A stretch of DNA of 64,000 nucleotides from Novosphingopyxis baekryungensis DSM 16222 (GTDB taxonomy: Bacteria > Pseudomonadota > Alphaproteobacteria > Sphingomonadales > Sphingomonadaceae): contig NZ_ATUR01000002.1 in the NCBI RefSeq assembly GCF_000420305.1, positions 310,001-374,000 on the forward strand, read 5' to 3'. Shown here one piece after another: positions 37,728 to 43,620 of this stretch. The notes below the pieces were generated by a model, which was given only the letters and a program-made list of their open reading frames with translations, did no database searches and was not told the origin of the DNA. Position 1 is the stretch's first letter. Every line of letters starts with the position of its first letter. Both the position numbers and the translations under genes were made by a program.

Positions 37728-39143
37728 TCACTCCTCGTCGCTGAGCTCCAATAGCTTGTCTTCCGCGCTTTCCACATCCTGTGCCTGCATCAGCTTGTTC
37801 ACATAGGTCTCGCGCCACCAGACCACATCGGTCTCGCCAATTTCGTCCATCATGATCTTCCAGCGGCGCTTGCGCTCGTCCAGCGGCATGGTCAGCGCCT
37901 GATGGATGGCGTCAGCCATTTCCTCGTCGCTATAAGGATTGATCAGCAGCGCCTCGGTCAGCTGTTGTGCAGCTCCGGCGAAGCGGCTGAGGATCAGCAC
38001 GCCGGGATCCTGCGGGTCTTGCGCCGCGACATATTCCTTGGCGACCAGATTCATGCCGTCGCGCAATGGCGTCACCAGCCCGACCTTGGCCGCGCGGTAG
38101 ATGCCGCCCAGCTGATCGCGCGGATAGCCCTTGTTGACGTAGCGGATAGGCGTCCAGTCGACATGCGCGAAGCGGCCATTGATGCGCCCGGATTCGGCTT
38201 CCAGCGAGGCGCGGATTTCCTGATAGCTCTTCACCTCGCCGCGCGAGGGCGGGGCGACCTGCACCAGCACGACATGGGTGTGCATCTCCGGATGATCGGT
38301 GAGATATTTCTCGAACCCCTGAAAGCGTTCTTCCAGTCCCTTGGAATAATCCAGACGATCCACGCCGACGATCATCGCGCGGTCCTGCAGGCTGGCGCGC
38401 ATCTTGGTCAGCGCCGCCTTGGCATTTTCTGAATTCACGGCATCCAGAAATTCGTCATAATCGATGCCGATGGGGCAAGCGAAGGCCTTGATCGTGCGGC
38501 TGCCGACGGTGATGTCATCGCCATCGATGGTGCCGCCCATTTCCTTTTCGCAATAATGGCGGAAGCTCTCCAGCCATTCCTCGGTCTGGAAACCCAGCAC
38601 ATCGTAGGCGAACAGGGATTGCACGAGCCGCTGATGATGCGGCAGCGCCACCAGCAGGCGCGTGGGCGGCCAGGGCGTGTGCAGGAAAAAGCCCATGCGG
38701 TTCTTCACGCCCTGACGGCGCAAGTCCCAGGCTAGCGGGATCAGGTGATAGTCATGCACCCAGACGGCATCGTCGCTCTCGATCAGCGGCTGCAGCGTCT
38801 CGGCGAAGCGTTTGTTGACCCGCTCATATCCGCTGCCAAAGCTGCGTACATATTCGGCCAGATCCATGCGATAATGGAACAGGGGCCACAGCGTGCGGTT
38901 GGCATAGCCATTATAATATTCGTCGACGTCCTGCTCTTCCAGATCGACCGTGGCGGTGCGCACGCCGTCATATTCGTCCAGCCCGATATGGCCGGTGAAT
39001 TTGCTTGCCGTCTCGCCCGACCAGCCGAACCAGATTCCCTTATGCTCGCGCAGTGCCGCAGACAGCGCGACGGCCAACCCGCCCTGCGCGCCATCGGGGC
39101 CGGGTTTCTGCACGCGGTTGGATACGATAATCAGGCGGCTCAT
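37728..39143 (-). CDS. otsA: Trehalose-6-phosphate synthase
   Basis: GT20 enzyme making trehalose-6-phosphate from UDP-glucose and glucose-6-phosphate. 471 residues. Starts [10 protein letters not shown], then GGLAVAL near 22 for the donor site, [12 protein letters not shown] near 128, and [14 protein letters not shown] near 254. The C-terminus ends in an acidic tail. Last gene of the otsB-GH15-otsA operon, joined by a four-base overlap. Product gives osmotic and drying protection. Confidence 0.96.
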
Positions 39144-40951
39144 CTATAGTCGCTCCAGGGTTTGCTGAGCAGGACGGCGCAGTTGATGATCCCAACAAGG
39201 GAATAGGTCTGCGGATAATTGCCCCACAGCTCACCGGACACCGGGTCGATATCTTCCGATAGCAGACCGGCGGGCGTCCGGCGACCCAACATGTCTGAAA
39301 ACAAGCGCTTAGCTTCTTCTTCGCGCCCGGATTTGGCCAGCGCCTCGATCAGCCAGAAGGTGCAGACGGTGAACGCAGTTTCCGGCGTGCCGAAGTCGTC
39401 CTCGCTGTCGTAACGCAACATGTGGTCGCCGCGGCGCAGCGCCTTTTCCAGCGCGCCGAGCGTGCCCTGAAAGCGCGCATCGTCTCCGGTGACGAAGCGC
39501 AGATCGACCATCTGCAGCAGGCTGGCATCGCGCATGTCGCCATCGAACGTGGCGGAAAAGGCCTGCGTGTCTTCACGCCATGCCGCGTCCTCGATGCGCT
39601 TCTTCATGGCCTCCGCGCGCGTGCGCCAATGGCTTGCGCGGTCCGGCAGGCCGAGCTCGCGCGCGGCACTGGCCAGGCGGTCGCAGGCGGCCCAGCACAT
39701 CATCGCGCTATAGGTGTGCACATGTGATTTGGTGCGCAATTCCCACAGCCCGGCGTCGGGCTGGTCGTACAGCTCGAACGCACGATCGCCGACCTTTTCG
39801 AGCGATTCGAAATCCTCCACGCCGGACATGCGCATCAGCCGGTGGTCGATAAAGGCCTGCACCGAGCTGAGCACGATCTGGCCATAGGCGTCATGCTGTT
39901 TCTGGCTGTAGGCGGCGTTGCCCACGCGCACCGGGCCCATGCCGCGATAGCCGCCAAGCGCATGCGCTTCGCCCTCTTCCAGCCGCGCATTGCCGCGCAC
40001 ATCGTAGAGCGGCTGGACATCGCCGGTCTTGCTGCTGTCGACGATGTTGCGCAGATATTCCAGATAGCTTTCCAGCACATCAAGCGCGCCGATCCGGTTC
40101 AGCGCCTCGACCGTATAATAGGCATCGCGCACCCAGCAGTAGCGATAGTCCCAGTTGCGCCCACTATCCGCATGTTCGGGGATCGAGGTGGTCAGCGCTG
40201 CCACGATCGCGCCGGTATCCTCATGCTGGCATAGCTTGAGCGTGATCGCCGCGCGGATTACCGCTTCCTGATATTCCGGCGGGGTGGCCAGCCCGCGCAC
40301 CCAGCCGCGCCATTCGCCCAGCGTATCGTCCAGCATCTTTTCCAAAGCAGGCTCGATCGCTTCGGAAAAGCTCTCATCCGGGCCCAGAAAGAAATACATG
40401 TCGCGTTCCACGCGAAAGGCATTCTCTTGCGATACCAGCCCGATCGGGGCGTTGGTGGACAGGCGCATCGGCATCGCATCGATAGCGTAGCAGATATGGT
40501 TGGAGCCATAGCTGCGGTCCACCTTGTCGATGTTCCAGCCGGATGCGGGACGCAGGCGCACGCGGATGCGCGGGCTTCCGGAGACGGCGCGCACGATCCG
40601 CACAAAGGCATTGGGCCGGTAAATCCGCCCCTTGCCGCGATAGCGCGGCGCGAAGTCGATAATGTCGATCGCGCTGCCATGATCGTCCGTCTTGCGCGTG
40701 ATCAGCACCGGTGAATTGCGCAGGTAGCGCTGCGACACGCTGGTGCAGCCCTCCAGCTCTATGGCCCAGAAGCCCCCGGCCTTTTCCTCGTCATCGAACG
40801 GCGTATCGTCGATCAGCGCAGGGAACAGCGGATCGCCGTCCACGCGCGGCAGGCAGGCCCAGACAAAACGCGCCTGATCGTCCACCAGCGCGCTGGCCTG
40901 ACAATTGCCGATCGGCCAGAGGTTGAGATTGCGATCCGATGCTTGGGTCAT
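39140..40951 (-). CDS. GH15-family glycoside hydrolase (glucoamylase/trehalase-like)
   Basis: 603-residue (alpha/alpha)6 enzyme. Typical GH15 signatures are NLWPIGNCQASALVD at the start, RNWDYRYCWVRDAYYTVEAL near residue 270 and the catalytic glutamates in the usual PLYDVRG.../LSEDIDPVSGELWGNYPQTYS region. No signal peptide, so cytosolic. In several actinobacteria and proteobacteria this clade hydrolyses trehalose. It overlaps both otsB (upstream) and otsA (downstream) by four bases, so synthesis and a possible breakdown enzyme are made together. Alternative substrates are short alpha-glucans. Confidence 0.88.
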   Translation of the reverse strand: MTQASDRNLNLWPIGNCQASALVDDQARFVWACLPRVDGDPLFPALIDDTPFDDEEKAGGFWAIELEGCTSVSQRYLRNSPVLITRKTDDHGSAIDIIDFAPRYRGKGRIYRPNAFVRIVRAVSGSPRIRVRLRPASGWNIDKVDRSYGSNHICYAIDAMPMRLSTNAPIGLVSQENAFRVERDMYFFLGPDESFSEAIEPALEKMLDDTLGEWRGWVRGLATPPEYQEAVIRAAITLKLCQHEDTGAIVAALTTSIPEHADSGRNWDYRYCWVRDAYYTVEALNRIGALDVLESYLEYLRNIVDSSKTGDVQPLYDVRGNARLEEGEAHALGGYRGMGPVRVGNAAYSQKQHDAYGQIVLSSVQAFIDHRLMRMSGVEDFESLEKVGDRAFELYDQPDAGLWELRTKSHVHTYSAMMCWAACDRLASAARELGLPDRASHWRTRAEAMKKRIEDAAWREDTQAFSATFDGDMRDASLLQMVDLRFVTGDDARFQGTLGALEKALRRGDHMLRYDSEDDFGTPETAFTVCTFWLIEALAKSGREEEAKRLFSDMLGRRTPAGLLSEDIDPVSGELWGNYPQTYSLVGIINCAVLLSKPWSDYR

Positions 40952-41694
40952 GAAGACACTCCCTGTTCCAGCCAGTGATGGACCGCAGCCACATCCTCCA
41001 GCCTGTATATGGCCGCGGTCTCGCGCTGCGGCCCGACCAGAATGCCATGTCCGCCCAGCGCGGCGACCGCTTCGAAGCCATCCTCGTCGGTCACGTCGTC
41101 GCCAAGAAAAACGGGCGTGCCACGGTCGAACGGCGGACGATCCATCAGGCCGCGGATGGCCGATCCCTTGTCATCCTGGCCCGCGCGCAGTTCGGCCATC
41201 ATCTTGCCGTCCTGCAGAAACAGACCATGCTCCTGCGCCAGTGCAGCGGCGAAAGCCTTGCATTCCGCCTCCCGCGCCGGCGCACGCCGATAATGCAGGC
41301 ACACGCCGAGCGGCTTGCGCTCGACCAGCAGGCCGTCATCGCGGGACGCAAAATCGTCGAGCGCGGCCCCAGCCGAGATCAACGCGTCCGGCGCGTCCGG
41401 CCGGTCGATGGTGCCGGGCTGCAAGCTGATCTCGCTGCCATGGCTGCCGGCAATCGGCGCATGGATGAGCCCGAACTGGCCGCGCAGCGTATCGACATCG
41501 CGACCGCTCACAATCGCCAGCCGCCCATCCAGCTGTTCCGTCAGCCGGTCCAGCAAGGCATGAAGCGTGCCGGCCACCTCCACCGCTTCGGGCCGGTCCG
41601 CCAGCGTGACGAGCGTGCCGTCGAAATCGAGAAACAGGCTCGCGCCGACCAGAAGGTCGCGCGGCGGGGCGGGCAGGGCAGAAGAGCTAGGCAC
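40948..41694 (-). CDS. otsB: Trehalose-6-phosphate phosphatase
   Basis: HAD-family phosphatase converting trehalose-6-phosphate to trehalose, 248 residues. HAD motif I is FLDFDGTLV near residue 22, and motif IV is VFLGDDVTDEDGF near 200. The start is chosen as GTG 41694, with AAGG about 10 bases upstream; a longer reading to ATG 41826 adds a basic low-complexity N-terminus with no family match and would run across the upstream control region. First gene of the trehalose operon. Confidence 0.93.
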   Translation of the reverse strand: MPSSSALPAPPRDLLVGASLFLDFDGTLVTLADRPEAVEVAGTLHALLDRLTEQLDGRLAIVSGRDVDTLRGQFGLIHAPIAGSHGSEISLQPGTIDRPDAPDALISAGAALDDFASRDDGLLVERKPLGVCLHYRRAPAREAECKAFAAALAQEHGLFLQDGKMMAELRAGQDDKGSAIRGLMDRPPFDRGTPVFLGDDVTDEDGFEAVAALGGHGILVGPQRETAAIYRLEDVAAVHHWLEQGVSS

Positions 41695-41831
41695 GCCGCG
41701 CACCTTATGGCTTTTGCTGCACTGCGCAAGAGAGGTGCGCCGCCCTTTCCGTCTTTTGACCGAACCAGCGGACGGGCGCCGCGCTGCGCAGGCCATGCTG
41801 CCAGAGAGAGTCATTCGCAGCATCATAATCG

Positions 41832-41847
41832 CTAGTGATTATCAATA
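41832..41847 (-). promoter_or_regulatory. Candidate Fur-like box in the otsB/small-gene divergent region
   Basis: On the minus strand this reads TATTGATAATCACTAG, agreeing with the site at 42224-42244 at 12 of 16 positions and containing a GATAAT unit. It is 17 bases upstream of the -35 of the small cysteine-rich gene. It could serve either direction. Confidence 0.45.
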
Positions 41848-41864
41848 GTAAGTTGTTGATTCCA

Positions 41865-41893
41865 TTGACTTTTTATTAGCGCGTCTGTATAAG
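41865..41893 (+). promoter_or_regulatory. Sigma-70 promoter of the 54-residue cysteine-rich protein gene
   Basis: TTGACT (41865-41870) and TATAAG (41888-41893) with a 17-base spacer, 42 bases before the ATG at 41936. One of the best promoter matches in the window. Confidence 0.75.
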
Positions 41894-41935
41894 GGTCGCA
41901 TCATATGAGATGAACAGACATAAAGGATCGCGCTA

Positions 41936-42100
41936 ATGCATTGCCAGAACTGCAAGTTTTTCCAGACGAATCAGACCGAGTGCCGCCGCTATGCACCGTC
42001 GCCGGCAGAGGGTGACAAGAAGGCGCATTGGCCCACCGTGTCGTCCGACGACTGGTGCGGCGAGTTTGTTGCAGCCGAGGGTGAGCGCAAAGCCGCCTGA
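41936..42100 (+). CDS. 54-residue four-cysteine protein
   Basis: Small protein with Cys3, Cys6, Cys16 and Cys41 (CxxC-x9-C-x24-C), starting MHCQNCKFF and with WPTVSSDDWCGEF around the last Cys. This layout is that of small metal or iron-sulfur binding proteins of unannotated families. It has its own promoter (TTGACT/TATAAG), an AAAGGA ribosome site, a Fur-like box upstream and a strong terminator downstream, so it is a single-gene unit. A function cannot be named. The gene is shorter than most gene finders' limit and could be missed. Confidence 0.8.
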   Translation: MHCQNCKFFQTNQTECRRYAPSPAEGDKKAHWPTVSSDDWCGEFVAAEGERKAA

Positions 42101-42146
42101 GCACATCAGCAGCGGATGGCTTCAGCCAGCGATCCGCATAGGTGAG

Positions 42147-42175
42147 AAAAAAGGGCGGTTCCGGCCGCCCTTTTT
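42147..42175 (+). terminator. Strong rho-independent terminator
   Basis: GGGCGG (42153-42158), loop TTCCGG, CCGCCC (42165-42170), flanked by A runs and TTTTT. Ends the transcript of the four-cysteine protein and separates it from the next small gene. Confidence 0.9.
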
Positions 42176-42223
42176 CATGCCCGCACGAATATTTATGGCA
42201 AAATGGCTTGACCCAGTCTCTTT

Positions 42224-42244
42224 TGCTTATCATTCTCAATAGCA
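42224..42244 (+). promoter_or_regulatory. Fur-like box before the 124-residue protein gene
   Basis: The minus strand contains TTGAGAATGATAAGC, close to classical Fur sites (GAGAATGAT core) with TGCT/AGCA ends. It is 20 bases before the ATG at 42265 and 10 bases after a TTGACC hexamer at 42208, so it lies on the likely -10 and start region. Best Fur-like match found here. Confidence 0.65.
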
Positions 42245-42264
42245 CGCAAGCTGTTGAGGTTTCC

Positions 42265-42639
42265 ATGATCGAACATTTTCGCGCCCATTGGTTTGACCGG
42301 ATTGCACAAGGCAGCACGCTCGCCGATCGTTCGGCGGCCGAACTGGCGGTCAGCCCTGGCCGTGCCGAAGGCCGCATTGCGCATTGGTCGCTCTGCCGGG
42401 CGGTGGCTGCCCTGCAGCGGGGGGCCCGTCGCCCGCTCCACATCGGTGCCATCGGCGCGCCGACCACGACGCCAAGCGAGCGCGCCTTTCTCTCGGTGCT
42501 GGATGCCATGGCCAATGGAGATCAGGCGCTGGCGCAGCGCCACGCCGAATGGCTCGTCCACAAATCGGCGCTGCCAGGCCTGCTCGGTGCCATAAGCCCG
42601 TTGGCCGATATCTATCCCAAACTCGCCCGCGCCGCCTGA
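42265..42639 (+). CDS. Unknown 124-residue protein behind a Fur-like box
   Basis: Protein without recognised domain, signal peptide or membrane span. It looks helical, with one Cys only (Cys44, WSLCRAV) and two Ala-rich halves around a Pro/Thr linker (GAPTTTPSERAFL). It starts IEHFRAHWFDRI. The ATG at 42265 follows TGAGGTTTCC (weak Shine-Dalgarno). The separate Fur-like box and the terminator upstream make it an independent unit. Iron-limited expression is expected but unproven. Confidence 0.7.
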   Translation: MIEHFRAHWFDRIAQGSTLADRSAAELAVSPGRAEGRIAHWSLCRAVAALQRGARRPLHIGAIGAPTTTPSERAFLSVLDAMANGDQALAQRHAEWLVHKSALPGLLGAISPLADIYPKLARAA

Positions 42640-43041
42640 AGGGGTTTTGAAAGCGCTGCGGGATCAGCCGCCTCCGCTTCGCGCCAAGCTGGATCGACCA
42701 GCCATGAGGTAGTGGTGCAATTGATCGGCACGATCTCGGCCAGCCTAGAATCGAGCCGCTGCGCCGCCTCCATCCCGCCGAACCCGGCCCCCACGATCAC
42801 GACCCGCTGTTTCGCCCGACCCATCGCAACCGTCCAATCCATAGCCGCCGATGCGCGAGCATATCGGTTTTTCGCAAAACCAACGATTGCACAAGCGCGC
42901 CGGAATACGTGTGAGCTACGTATGCAACGCAACCTTCATCCCCCTCGGCATTATGTAGGAAACGCGCCAAGCGCGGGTGCCCGCCGGCGCAGTTCGGTTT
43001 CAGGACTCGCGTTATGAGCGGGCTTGGGACAAGGTTAGTGT
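42640..43041. other. 400-base interval holding only a gene fragment
   Basis: Between the 124-residue gene and the membrane protein gene. The only recognisable content is the flavoprotein fragment on the minus strand (42713-42824); the rest is anonymous. Confidence 0.5.
42713..42824 (-). pseudogene. N-terminal fragment of an NDH-2-like flavoprotein
   Basis: The minus strand starts MGRAKQRVVIVGAGFGGM and continues AAQRLDSRLAEIVPI, the dinucleotide-binding GxGxxG beta-alpha-beta unit that opens NAD(P)H dehydrogenase-type flavoproteins. After about 37 residues the match ends and the frame runs into unrelated sequence with a stop near 42612. No continuing flavoprotein sequence is found nearby. 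It is therefore a truncated relict, marking a deletion or insertion boundary. Confidence 0.65.
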
Positions 43042-43620
43042 ATGATTGCAGCCAAACGAATAGGGTCGTTTTTAGTAACTGGCATTCTGTGGCTTTTTCT
43101 AGGAGCGCGGCTTGTAGCGGACGGCATTGGCTACGCGACACTGCCAGACGATGCGAAAGTAGCATCGAAGGTGGGTCATCAGGTAATTTTATACGTTCTT
43201 GCAACGCCTTGGTGGGCTGCTTTTGGCGCAGCGCTTATCGCTACCATCTATCTGATTCACACGTCATGGCCTCGTACATCTTCTGGAAAATCACCTCGGA
43301 AATCAGATAGGTACTACGGATTGGGTCTGGAAGGCCTTCGTTTTGCTCGCCGAGTGGACGTTTACTTTTCAGGAAACCATTCAAGCCATGGAGAAAATGC
43401 TCGTGACCTCTTAGCCGCTGGCTATTCGCTCCGTATTTCCTACGAAAAATCGAAAATTACCACGCCTCGGTTTGGCGACGAAACTGATGTTGATACTATG
43501 CTGAATGACATGTGCTTGTTTTACGCCGCTACCGGTACGCTTCTAAAAGACGGGCACTTCAAAGAAGCAGTAGCCCATGCGCGTCACATAATTAAAGCAA
43601 AAGGTTTGTCGCCCCAATAG
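43042..43620 (+). CDS. Orphan membrane-anchored protein
   Basis: 192-residue protein with two hydrophobic segments (about residues 6-30 and 47-72) and a cytosolic C-terminal half containing GLEGLRFARRVDVYFSGNHSSHGENARDLL. No domain recognised. Base composition is visibly more AT-rich than the flanks, and codon use includes several AT-ending codons, so it may be acquired. AAGG sits about 8 bases before the ATG. The 3' end overlaps the convergent DUF6471 gene by 37 bases. Confidence 0.65.
   Translation: MIAAKRIGSFLVTGILWLFLGARLVADGIGYATLPDDAKVASKVGHQVILYVLATPWWAAFGAALIATIYLIHTSWPRTSSGKSPRKSDRYYGLGLEGLRFARRVDVYFSGNHSSHGENARDLLAAGYSLRISYEKSKITTPRFGDETDVDTMLNDMCLFYAATGTLLKDGHFKEAVAHARHIIKAKGLSPQ

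Follow-up and report, generated by a model that had tools for sequence, protein, structure and literature searches.

Two small genes behind Fur-type boxes in Novosphingopyxis baekryungensis: a probable HiPIP-like mini-protein and a remote relative of DUF6628

We analysed a 64-kb stretch of DNA (the window; C2:310001-374000) from the 3.06-Mb genome of Novosphingopyxis baekryungensis DSM 16222 (host genome, G000; completeness 99.99%), with attention to two adjacent genes for small proteins, here called P1 and P2, each preceded by its own Fur-type box. The pair is real, conserved and, as judged from sequence, Fur-linked. P1 is a probable HiPIP-like mini-protein, and P2 is assigned, through profile comparisons, to an essentially unannotated superfamily together with DUF6628. 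The features of the locus are as follows.

41830-41850, no strand assigned: Fur-type box 1, CGCTAGTGATTATCAATAGTA, 5' of P1; near-palindromic, fitting the box pattern on both strands
41865-41893, plus strand: candidate P1 promoter TTGACT-17-TATAAG, 3' of box 1, with 10 of 12 consensus matches in the host genome
41936-42100, plus strand: P1, a 54-residue four-cysteine protein with the pattern C-x2-C-x9-C-x24-C and DDWCGEF at the last cysteine
42146-42176, plus strand: G+C-rich hairpin with T run between P1 and P2, a probable terminator by fold calculation
42208-42236, plus strand: candidate P2 promoter TTGACC-17-CATTCT, with its -10 inside box 2
42223-42244, no strand assigned: Fur-type box 2, TTGCTTATCATTCTCAATAGCA, 5' of P2
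42265-42639, plus strand: P2, a 124-residue helical protein, remote relative of DUF6628 (PF20333)

A first-pass annotation, made from the letters of the window alone, had described these two reading frames and a core shared by two Fur-like sites, and both descriptions hold. The window contains exactly two copies of the core, TATTGANAAT (41838-41847 and 42232-42241), compared with a mean of 0.10 copies in shuffled windows, of which 1 in 100 reached two. Background on the E. coli Fur box and on Helicobacter was taken from the available part of PMC2671405. The 19-mer of box 2, allowing three mismatches, occurs once where 0.01 occurrences are expected. For box 1, conservation across homologous upstream regions argues for more than chance: the pattern TGCTANTGATTATCA, which was derived from the same upstream sequences in which it was counted, is found with at most one mismatch in nine of ten such regions, and dinucleotide shuffles equalled this once in 3000. 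Box 2 fits TGCNNATCATTCTCA with at most one mismatch in all ten homologous loci. Over nine genomes, some of them closely related and with L027 left out, the mean share of the commonest base is 0.94 in the 15-bp core of box 1, 0.75 in the next 28 bp and 0.44-0.48 in the flanks. Several points weigh against reading the boxes as Fur operators. The number of matches to the box-1 15-mer in the window, four at up to three mismatches against 2.14 expected, is not significant, although all four fall on boxes 1 and 2; L027 has no convincing box 1 (three mismatches, near chance at 58 of 3000 shuffles); and the box patterns were picked after the sequences had been inspected.

The pair was followed through 149 genomes of the family, representing 96 genera. 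P1 was matched at E ≤ 0.001 in 11 genomes, six of them strongly (E ≤ 2.6e-24) and five weakly; the weak matches (G030, G039, G050, G090 and G112) were kept out of the strong set, and two of them later proved to be pairs. P2 was matched in seven genomes, namely the same six and G035, which was excluded from the count (E 3.9e-4, 28% identity, two stops). A scan of named contigs for P1 gave 26 loci, of which 18 are distant and eight share 70-78% identity; the latter come from Erythrobacter-, Actirhodobacter-, Parapontixanthobacter- and Porphyrobacter-type records, one Erythrobacteraceae record and two alphaproteobacterial metagenome-assembled genomes. Four of these eight coincide with four of the six strong genomes, giving ten genomes with a close P1 homologue in total. 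P2 lies downstream of P1 in the same direction in all ten. By eye, the flanks of the pair represent at least five different gene contexts, with upstream genes shared by L025, L026 and L029 and downstream genes by L027 and L028. Over the ten genomes 31 of the 54 residues of P1 are invariant, as are 13 of the 124 residues of P2. The proposal of a Fur-linked pair had been staked on the presence of the boxes in related genomes, where we find the pair in ten of ten, box 1 in nine and box 2 in ten. In G030 and G112, diverged P1-like and P2-like genes lie 0.5-0.7 kb apart with Fur-type boxes 5' of both; their P1-like protein, used as a query on 196 genomes, found P1 in G000 and G020 and a prophage-like locus.

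The first-pass annotation had also credited each gene with its own promoter and placed a strong terminator between the two. The hairpin between P1 and P2 has a folding energy of -24.6 kcal/mol (z -2.7), which supports the terminator, but a strict consensus scanner run over 41700-42700 lists neither this hairpin nor any sigma-70-type promoter, so that the promoters rest on looser matching. The proposed placement of the second site on the likely -10 region is borne out for P2: the hexamer CATTCT lies inside box 2, and in six of the ten genomes the box is centred at -12 relative to the candidate promoter with a 17-bp spacer, five of these having a TTGAC -35. In the other four genomes the scan placed the box centre at -18, 0, +11 and +23. 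Fur repressors are expected at such positions: for two repressed operons tested in Caulobacter, the Fur site lies across both the -35 and the -10, according to the portion of the study available to us (PMC3751524). The position of box 2 on the candidate -10 in six genomes suggests that Fur probably represses P2 through this box.

The same class of box precedes other genes of the host genome, as seen in genome-wide scans whose patterns were drawn from the P1-P2 pair itself. Box 2 is the sole exact match to TTGCNNNTCATTCTCA in 3.06 Mb; with one mismatch allowed, the scan returned the pair's own box and two others, and the scan for sites like box 1 returned seven matches at four places. Outside the pair, sites lie 5' of two PepSY-type membrane genes and one siderophore-interacting-type gene (names assigned by eye), while the two remaining matches, in or at the start of coding sequence, look accidental. 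Two Fur-family genes are present, by eye one Fur-like and one Zur-like. Sequence-level features of a Fur regulon are present: conserved Fur-type operators in promoter regions, an encoded Fur, and a box class that precedes iron genes, the last as read by eye.

To place the two proteins, P1 and P2 were searched singly against Pfam, NCBIfam and PHROGs, and none of the matches exceeded a curated cut-off (PHROGs E 0.049 and worse). The earlier statement that both lack a recognised family stands at this level only, since both have distant relatives, HiPIP-like for P1 and DUF6628 for P2; homologues of known function were not found for P2, and for P1 are limited to the distant HiPIP-like ones.

P1 belongs to a broad family of four-cysteine proteins, in which it is a single twig; the members include records from Alphaproteobacteria, Planctomycetes, Lentisphaeria, Desulfobacterales and Burkholderiaceae. 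In the family alignment (A4; 26 of 28 sequences used, L043 and L011 being dropped) the invariant columns are C3, C6, C16, P21, W40, C41 and G42. A member-by-member Pfam scan of these 26 at E ≤ 10 gave matches to HIPIP for five, BssC_TutF for two and HPIP_like for one. One member, L045, exceeds the HIPIP cut-off (5.9e-6) with a match that starts at the first cysteine and extends as far as the last cysteine region; it also weakly matches HPIP_like and BssC_TutF, and the last of these is touched by L031 as well. A PDB search with the 26-member profile at E ≤ 10 returned only three matches: 2hip (0.015), 1pih (0.02) and MasC (9o8u_C, 5). Direct comparison of HiPIP and P1 profiles aligned the CxxC part alone at E 2e-4, a weak result, with three HiPIP sequences on one side and one HiPIP cysteine misaligned. 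We consider it reasonably likely, from these sequence relations, that P1 is a HiPIP-like [4Fe-4S] protein.

HiPIPs are exported proteins of about 60-85 residues. P1 departs from this norm, having 54 residues and starting two residues before its first cysteine (residue 3), which leaves no room for an export signal. It shares with HiPIP (PF01355), BssC/TutF (PF08201) and MasC the CX2CXnCXnC set, in which tryptophan immediately precedes the last cysteine, and it differs from HiPIP in the 24 residues between its third and fourth cysteines. The part of the MasC study available to us describes a 7-kDa protein of HiPIP-like fold that binds a [4Fe-4S] cluster and has the CX2CXnCXnC motif, and reports that MASS-beta uses Cys32, 35, 51 and 86, a long third loop (Cys51 to Cys86) being tolerated (PMC12358834). 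Should P1 bind a cluster, its chain would be a little shorter than that of MasC, which has 60 residues.

A number of observations count against a HiPIP-like P1. P1 itself falls far below the curated HIPIP cut-off (9.2 versus 22 bits, E 2), and ten of the 26 family members, scanned singly, have no Pfam match at E ≤ 1. The PDB alignment puts the third cysteine of P1 on the fourth of HiPIP, out of four-cysteine register. A profile of six close P1 homologues found no HiPIP in the PDB, returning three unrelated chains at E 1.1-1.9. Three of the 26 members touch ZF-HD_dimer (best 0.067) and three touch NinE. The AlphaFold model is poor (predicted local distance difference test, pLDDT, 59; predicted template-modelling score, pTM, 0.31), which leaves a zinc site possible. 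In a separate survey of the class, three of 115 genomes had the HIPIP family itself, which was not found in the host genome. The iron-sulfur reading of the 54-residue protein in the first-pass annotation survives as a distant HiPIP-like kinship but not as family membership, and another of its suggestions, metal storage, drew support from no result. Upstream of the 18 distant P1-like loci (L030-L047), a Fur-like site within 500 bp was found only in L044 (one mismatch) and L042 (two mismatches), so that Fur control does not characterise the P1 family at large.

P2 was related to DUF6628, a Pfam family of unknown function, by profile methods. A P2 profile weakly matched four further genes, two of them DUF6628 by Pfam. 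When 4075 six-frame open reading frames (ORFs) were ranked with the P2 profile, DUF6628 and two intermediates came immediately behind P2 at ranks 26-40 (E 6e-6 to 0.11), ahead of any unrelated ORF; with a DUF6628 profile, the intermediates took ranks 34-51 (E 1e-5 to 0.34) together with some rows of P2 and of P2-like proteins, again ahead of any unrelated ORF. A profile-profile comparison of P2 with DUF6628 by hhalign gave E 1.4e-4 and a probability of 53% over 44 columns, compared with E 0.16 for the single unrelated control. Two further groups (A12 and A13) matched P2 at 2.8e-8 and 5.1e-9, DUF6628 at 4.1e-7 and 9e-6, and each other at 1.4e-12, values that are not independent because the groups were found with a profile containing P2. 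Ten proteins of such further groups, scanned per library, gave no Pfam match at E ≤ 1 and no significant NCBIfam match. Profile-profile comparison and ranking in both directions thus support the placement of P2 and DUF6628 in one putative superfamily.

The alignable part is residues 47-91 of P2, and the two groups have Fur-type boxes of similar class and position. They differ in the invariant cysteine of the APCC motif of DUF6628 (C80 in alignment A7), which is missing in six of the ten P2 rows, the host included. P2 reads IGAIGAPTTT at this position, and a nearby cysteine occurs only in L022-L024 and L028 (four of ten rows). P2 is distinct from the true DUF6628 gene that the host genome has at another place behind a box of its own; this gene (L093, G000:C6:9303-9566, minus strand) lies, by eye, just after the end of a folC-like gene and has an exact TTGCGATTGACTTGCAATAGC upstream. 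Against the kinship, P2 alone has no Pfam match up to E 10, leaving the DUF6628 cut-off unreached, and no NCBIfam match, and the DUF6628-profile ranking puts the P2 rows of L025 and L027 after unrelated ORFs. The P2 model is all-helical (pLDDT 85) and matches no solved fold (Foldseek, none at E < 0.7; VIA-align, none at Z > 4.9); such fold scores are unconvincing because helical bundles reach them by chance. The 28 PDB matches of P2, mostly TAL effectors at E 0.11 and worse, are not considered credible.

DUF6628 was found in 37 of the 149 family genomes (36 over the cut-off) and in none of 14 control genomes. Among the best 30 of 39 match rows, all 30 loci have a Fur-type box or the variant TTGCGATTGACTTGCAATAGC within 230 bp upstream at up to five mismatches, compared with none of 360 control windows. 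The variant aligns in register with the ordinary Fur-type box and is a candidate Fur site. A lax joint profile (E ≤ 0.01) extended the relatives of P2 to 152 of 298 family genomes and 58 of 96 genera. At the P2-like loci L110-L130, a site with up to five mismatches lies within 300 bp upstream in 15 of 21 loci; this count leaves out L131, the 22nd locus, and includes L110, which is the same place as L051 and was already in the profile. The background is eight sites in 63 kb elsewhere, seven of them at 570-780 bp upstream in L114, L115 and L123. The patterns for both counts were written after viewing the DUF6628 upstream regions, and the counts are not an independent test.

In three of the 21 P2-like loci (G125, G138 and G075) the P2-like gene is followed by a gene that in NCBIfam best matches ferredoxin-NADP reductase (E 1e-36 to 4e-39, under the equivalog cut-off). 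One of the three, L124 (G138), has no box, and no ferredoxin reductase adjoins the P1-P2 pair itself in flanks read by eye; both facts weigh against the role proposed below for the pair. In L125 (G075), a Fur-type site separates two back-to-back P2-like genes of different branches, and the far end of the locus has a masked stretch. In L118 and L119, some 250 bp 5' of the match, a short ORF with a few cysteines seems by eye to separate the P2-like gene from the Fur-like variant box, and L118 seems to have a second P2-like gene in tandem.

The pair is not the unit of novelty: P2 is a twig of a larger, mostly box-bearing superfamily in which DUF6628 is the only Pfam family found, as P1 is of its four-cysteine family. 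A wider proposition, which we put forward as doubtful, is that small helical proteins under Fur control form a superfamily that runs through the whole bacterial family and has gone unrecognised. Such proteins would be dedicated adaptors serving iron-sulfur electron transfer when iron is scarce; their partner would be a HiPIP-like mini-protein with a Fur box of its own in some genomes, as in the window, and a ferredoxin-NADP-reductase-like gene in others.

For the pair itself, we propose that P1 and P2 are separate units of the Fur regulon, a HiPIP-like [4Fe-4S] protein and a helical protein, that act together in a redox or iron-mobilising step of iron starvation, an explanation to which we give not quite an even chance. 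The conservation of the pair and its boxes, the boxes 5' of iron-reduction-type genes, the remote kinship of P2 and the cysteine pattern are computed; to these we add, by inference, Fur binding, a direction of control, a cluster, a partner and a pathway. As judged from the anatomy of its promoter, iron-loaded Fur on box 2 would cover the -10 and repress P2, which would be made when iron is scarce, and Fur would control P1 through box 1 by repression or activation. P1 would be a very small cytoplasmic protein whose four cysteines hold a [4Fe-4S] cluster, serving as an electron carrier or regulatory subunit, and may supply or sense electrons in the same pathway as P2. P2-type proteins, by analogy, may work on iron-sulfur electron-transfer partners in that step.

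A precedent for a small iron-sulfur protein is the bacterioferritin-associated ferredoxin of Caulobacter, induced 57-fold by lack of iron, as given in the available part of PMC3751524. Together with the reductase-like genes next to P2-like ones, this precedent makes electron transfer or iron mobilisation a likelier role than storage. In working terms, P1, as the proposed small Fur-linked iron-sulfur protein, would resemble this ferredoxin and its pairing with ferredoxin-NADP reductase, and P2-type genes precede such reductase-like genes in three loci; the likeness of P1 to the ferredoxin is one of function alone, with no sequence relation claimed.

The sign of control of P1 bears on an alternative in which the pair is a reciprocal switch, Fur activating P1 when iron is plentiful and repressing P2, so that under iron shortage another protein takes the place of an iron-sulfur protein. 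The good TTGACT-17-TATAAG promoter 3' of box 1 would suit it, the box centre lying near -63 in the host and at -64 in G001, and a few Caulobacter genes may be activated by Fur directly, going by the available part of PMC3751524. When placements were compared over the nine genomes other than L027, however, this promoter ranked third, with 10 of 12 matches in G000, eight in G001 and L028 and four to seven in the other six. Ranked first, with 7-8 of 12 matches in each of the nine, is a placement whose -35 falls within box 1; next comes one whose -10 falls there (6-8 of 12); the promoter scan puts box 1 on or near the -35 in seven of ten genomes, and conservation upstream of P1 stops about where the start site of a box-overlapping promoter would fall. 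After this comparison Fur activation of P1 was dropped as the preferred reading. On these competing placements the sign of P1 control would lean to repression by Fur, and we hold the reciprocal switch to be unlikely. That both boxes are chance A+T-rich sites and the genes not iron-regulated is very improbable: the window count for box 1 alone, which is not significant, would allow it, but the retention of box 1 in nine and of box 2 in all ten genomes, the boxes 5' of the best 30 of 39 DUF6628 matches against none of 360 control windows, and the same boxes 5' of reductase-type iron genes in the host genome stand against it.

A different objection concerns P1 itself, which might be a zinc-binding or structural four-cysteine protein of phage ancestry with another job, the neighbourhood with P2 being regulatory only. 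P1-like proteins do occur in phages (six records, E 0.01-0.1) and plasmids (30 records), the rows listed being 'hypothetical protein', and in the prophage-like locus L095 (G053), which by eye has DNA methyltransferase and terminase-like neighbours. NinE (PF05322) is the top single Pfam match of P1 (E 0.021), below its cut-off (15.1 versus 25 bits); L043 weakly matches zinc-finger models, and the ZF-HD_dimer contacts and the absence of HiPIP from the close-homologue PDB search point the same way. On the other side, P1 has a single CxxC pair and the wider profile favours HiPIP-like families. In G039 and G090, of two genera, the P1-like gene (L016 and L017; from 1315/1336) was seen by eye to lie directly 5' of a gene for a Rieske-type ring-hydroxylating oxygenase, an arrangement that suggests an electron-transfer setting or possible partner. 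We consider such a zinc or structural role rather improbable and retain the joint role of a HiPIP-like P1 and P2 as the preferred explanation.

Immediately 5' of the pair, at 37728-41826 on the minus strand of the window, lie three genes that by eye resemble those for trehalose-phosphate synthase, a glucoamylase-type hydrolase and trehalose phosphatase. A short frame at 42612-42932 on the minus strand has a dinucleotide-binding start (RVVIVGAGFGGMEAAQRL) and ends early; by eye it resembles what is left of a gene for an NADH-dehydrogenase-type flavoprotein. At 43042-43617 on the plus strand, a 192-residue protein weakly matches PycTM, a family of Pycsar effectors (E 0.0079; 17 bits, with the cut-off at 27.2).

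Searches of the open-access literature, with subscription papers outside their reach, found no mention of DUF6628 and, among the papers listed, no study of P1 or P2 or of a sphingomonad Fur regulon. Fur control itself is well known; what would be new, if the box reading is right, is a superfamily tied to iron, one that apart from DUF6628 has no family model among the ten members scanned per library. A protein group found with the lax profile in about half of the sampled family genomes would then be linked to iron, and P1 and P2 may represent a hitherto undescribed branch of the response to iron starvation.

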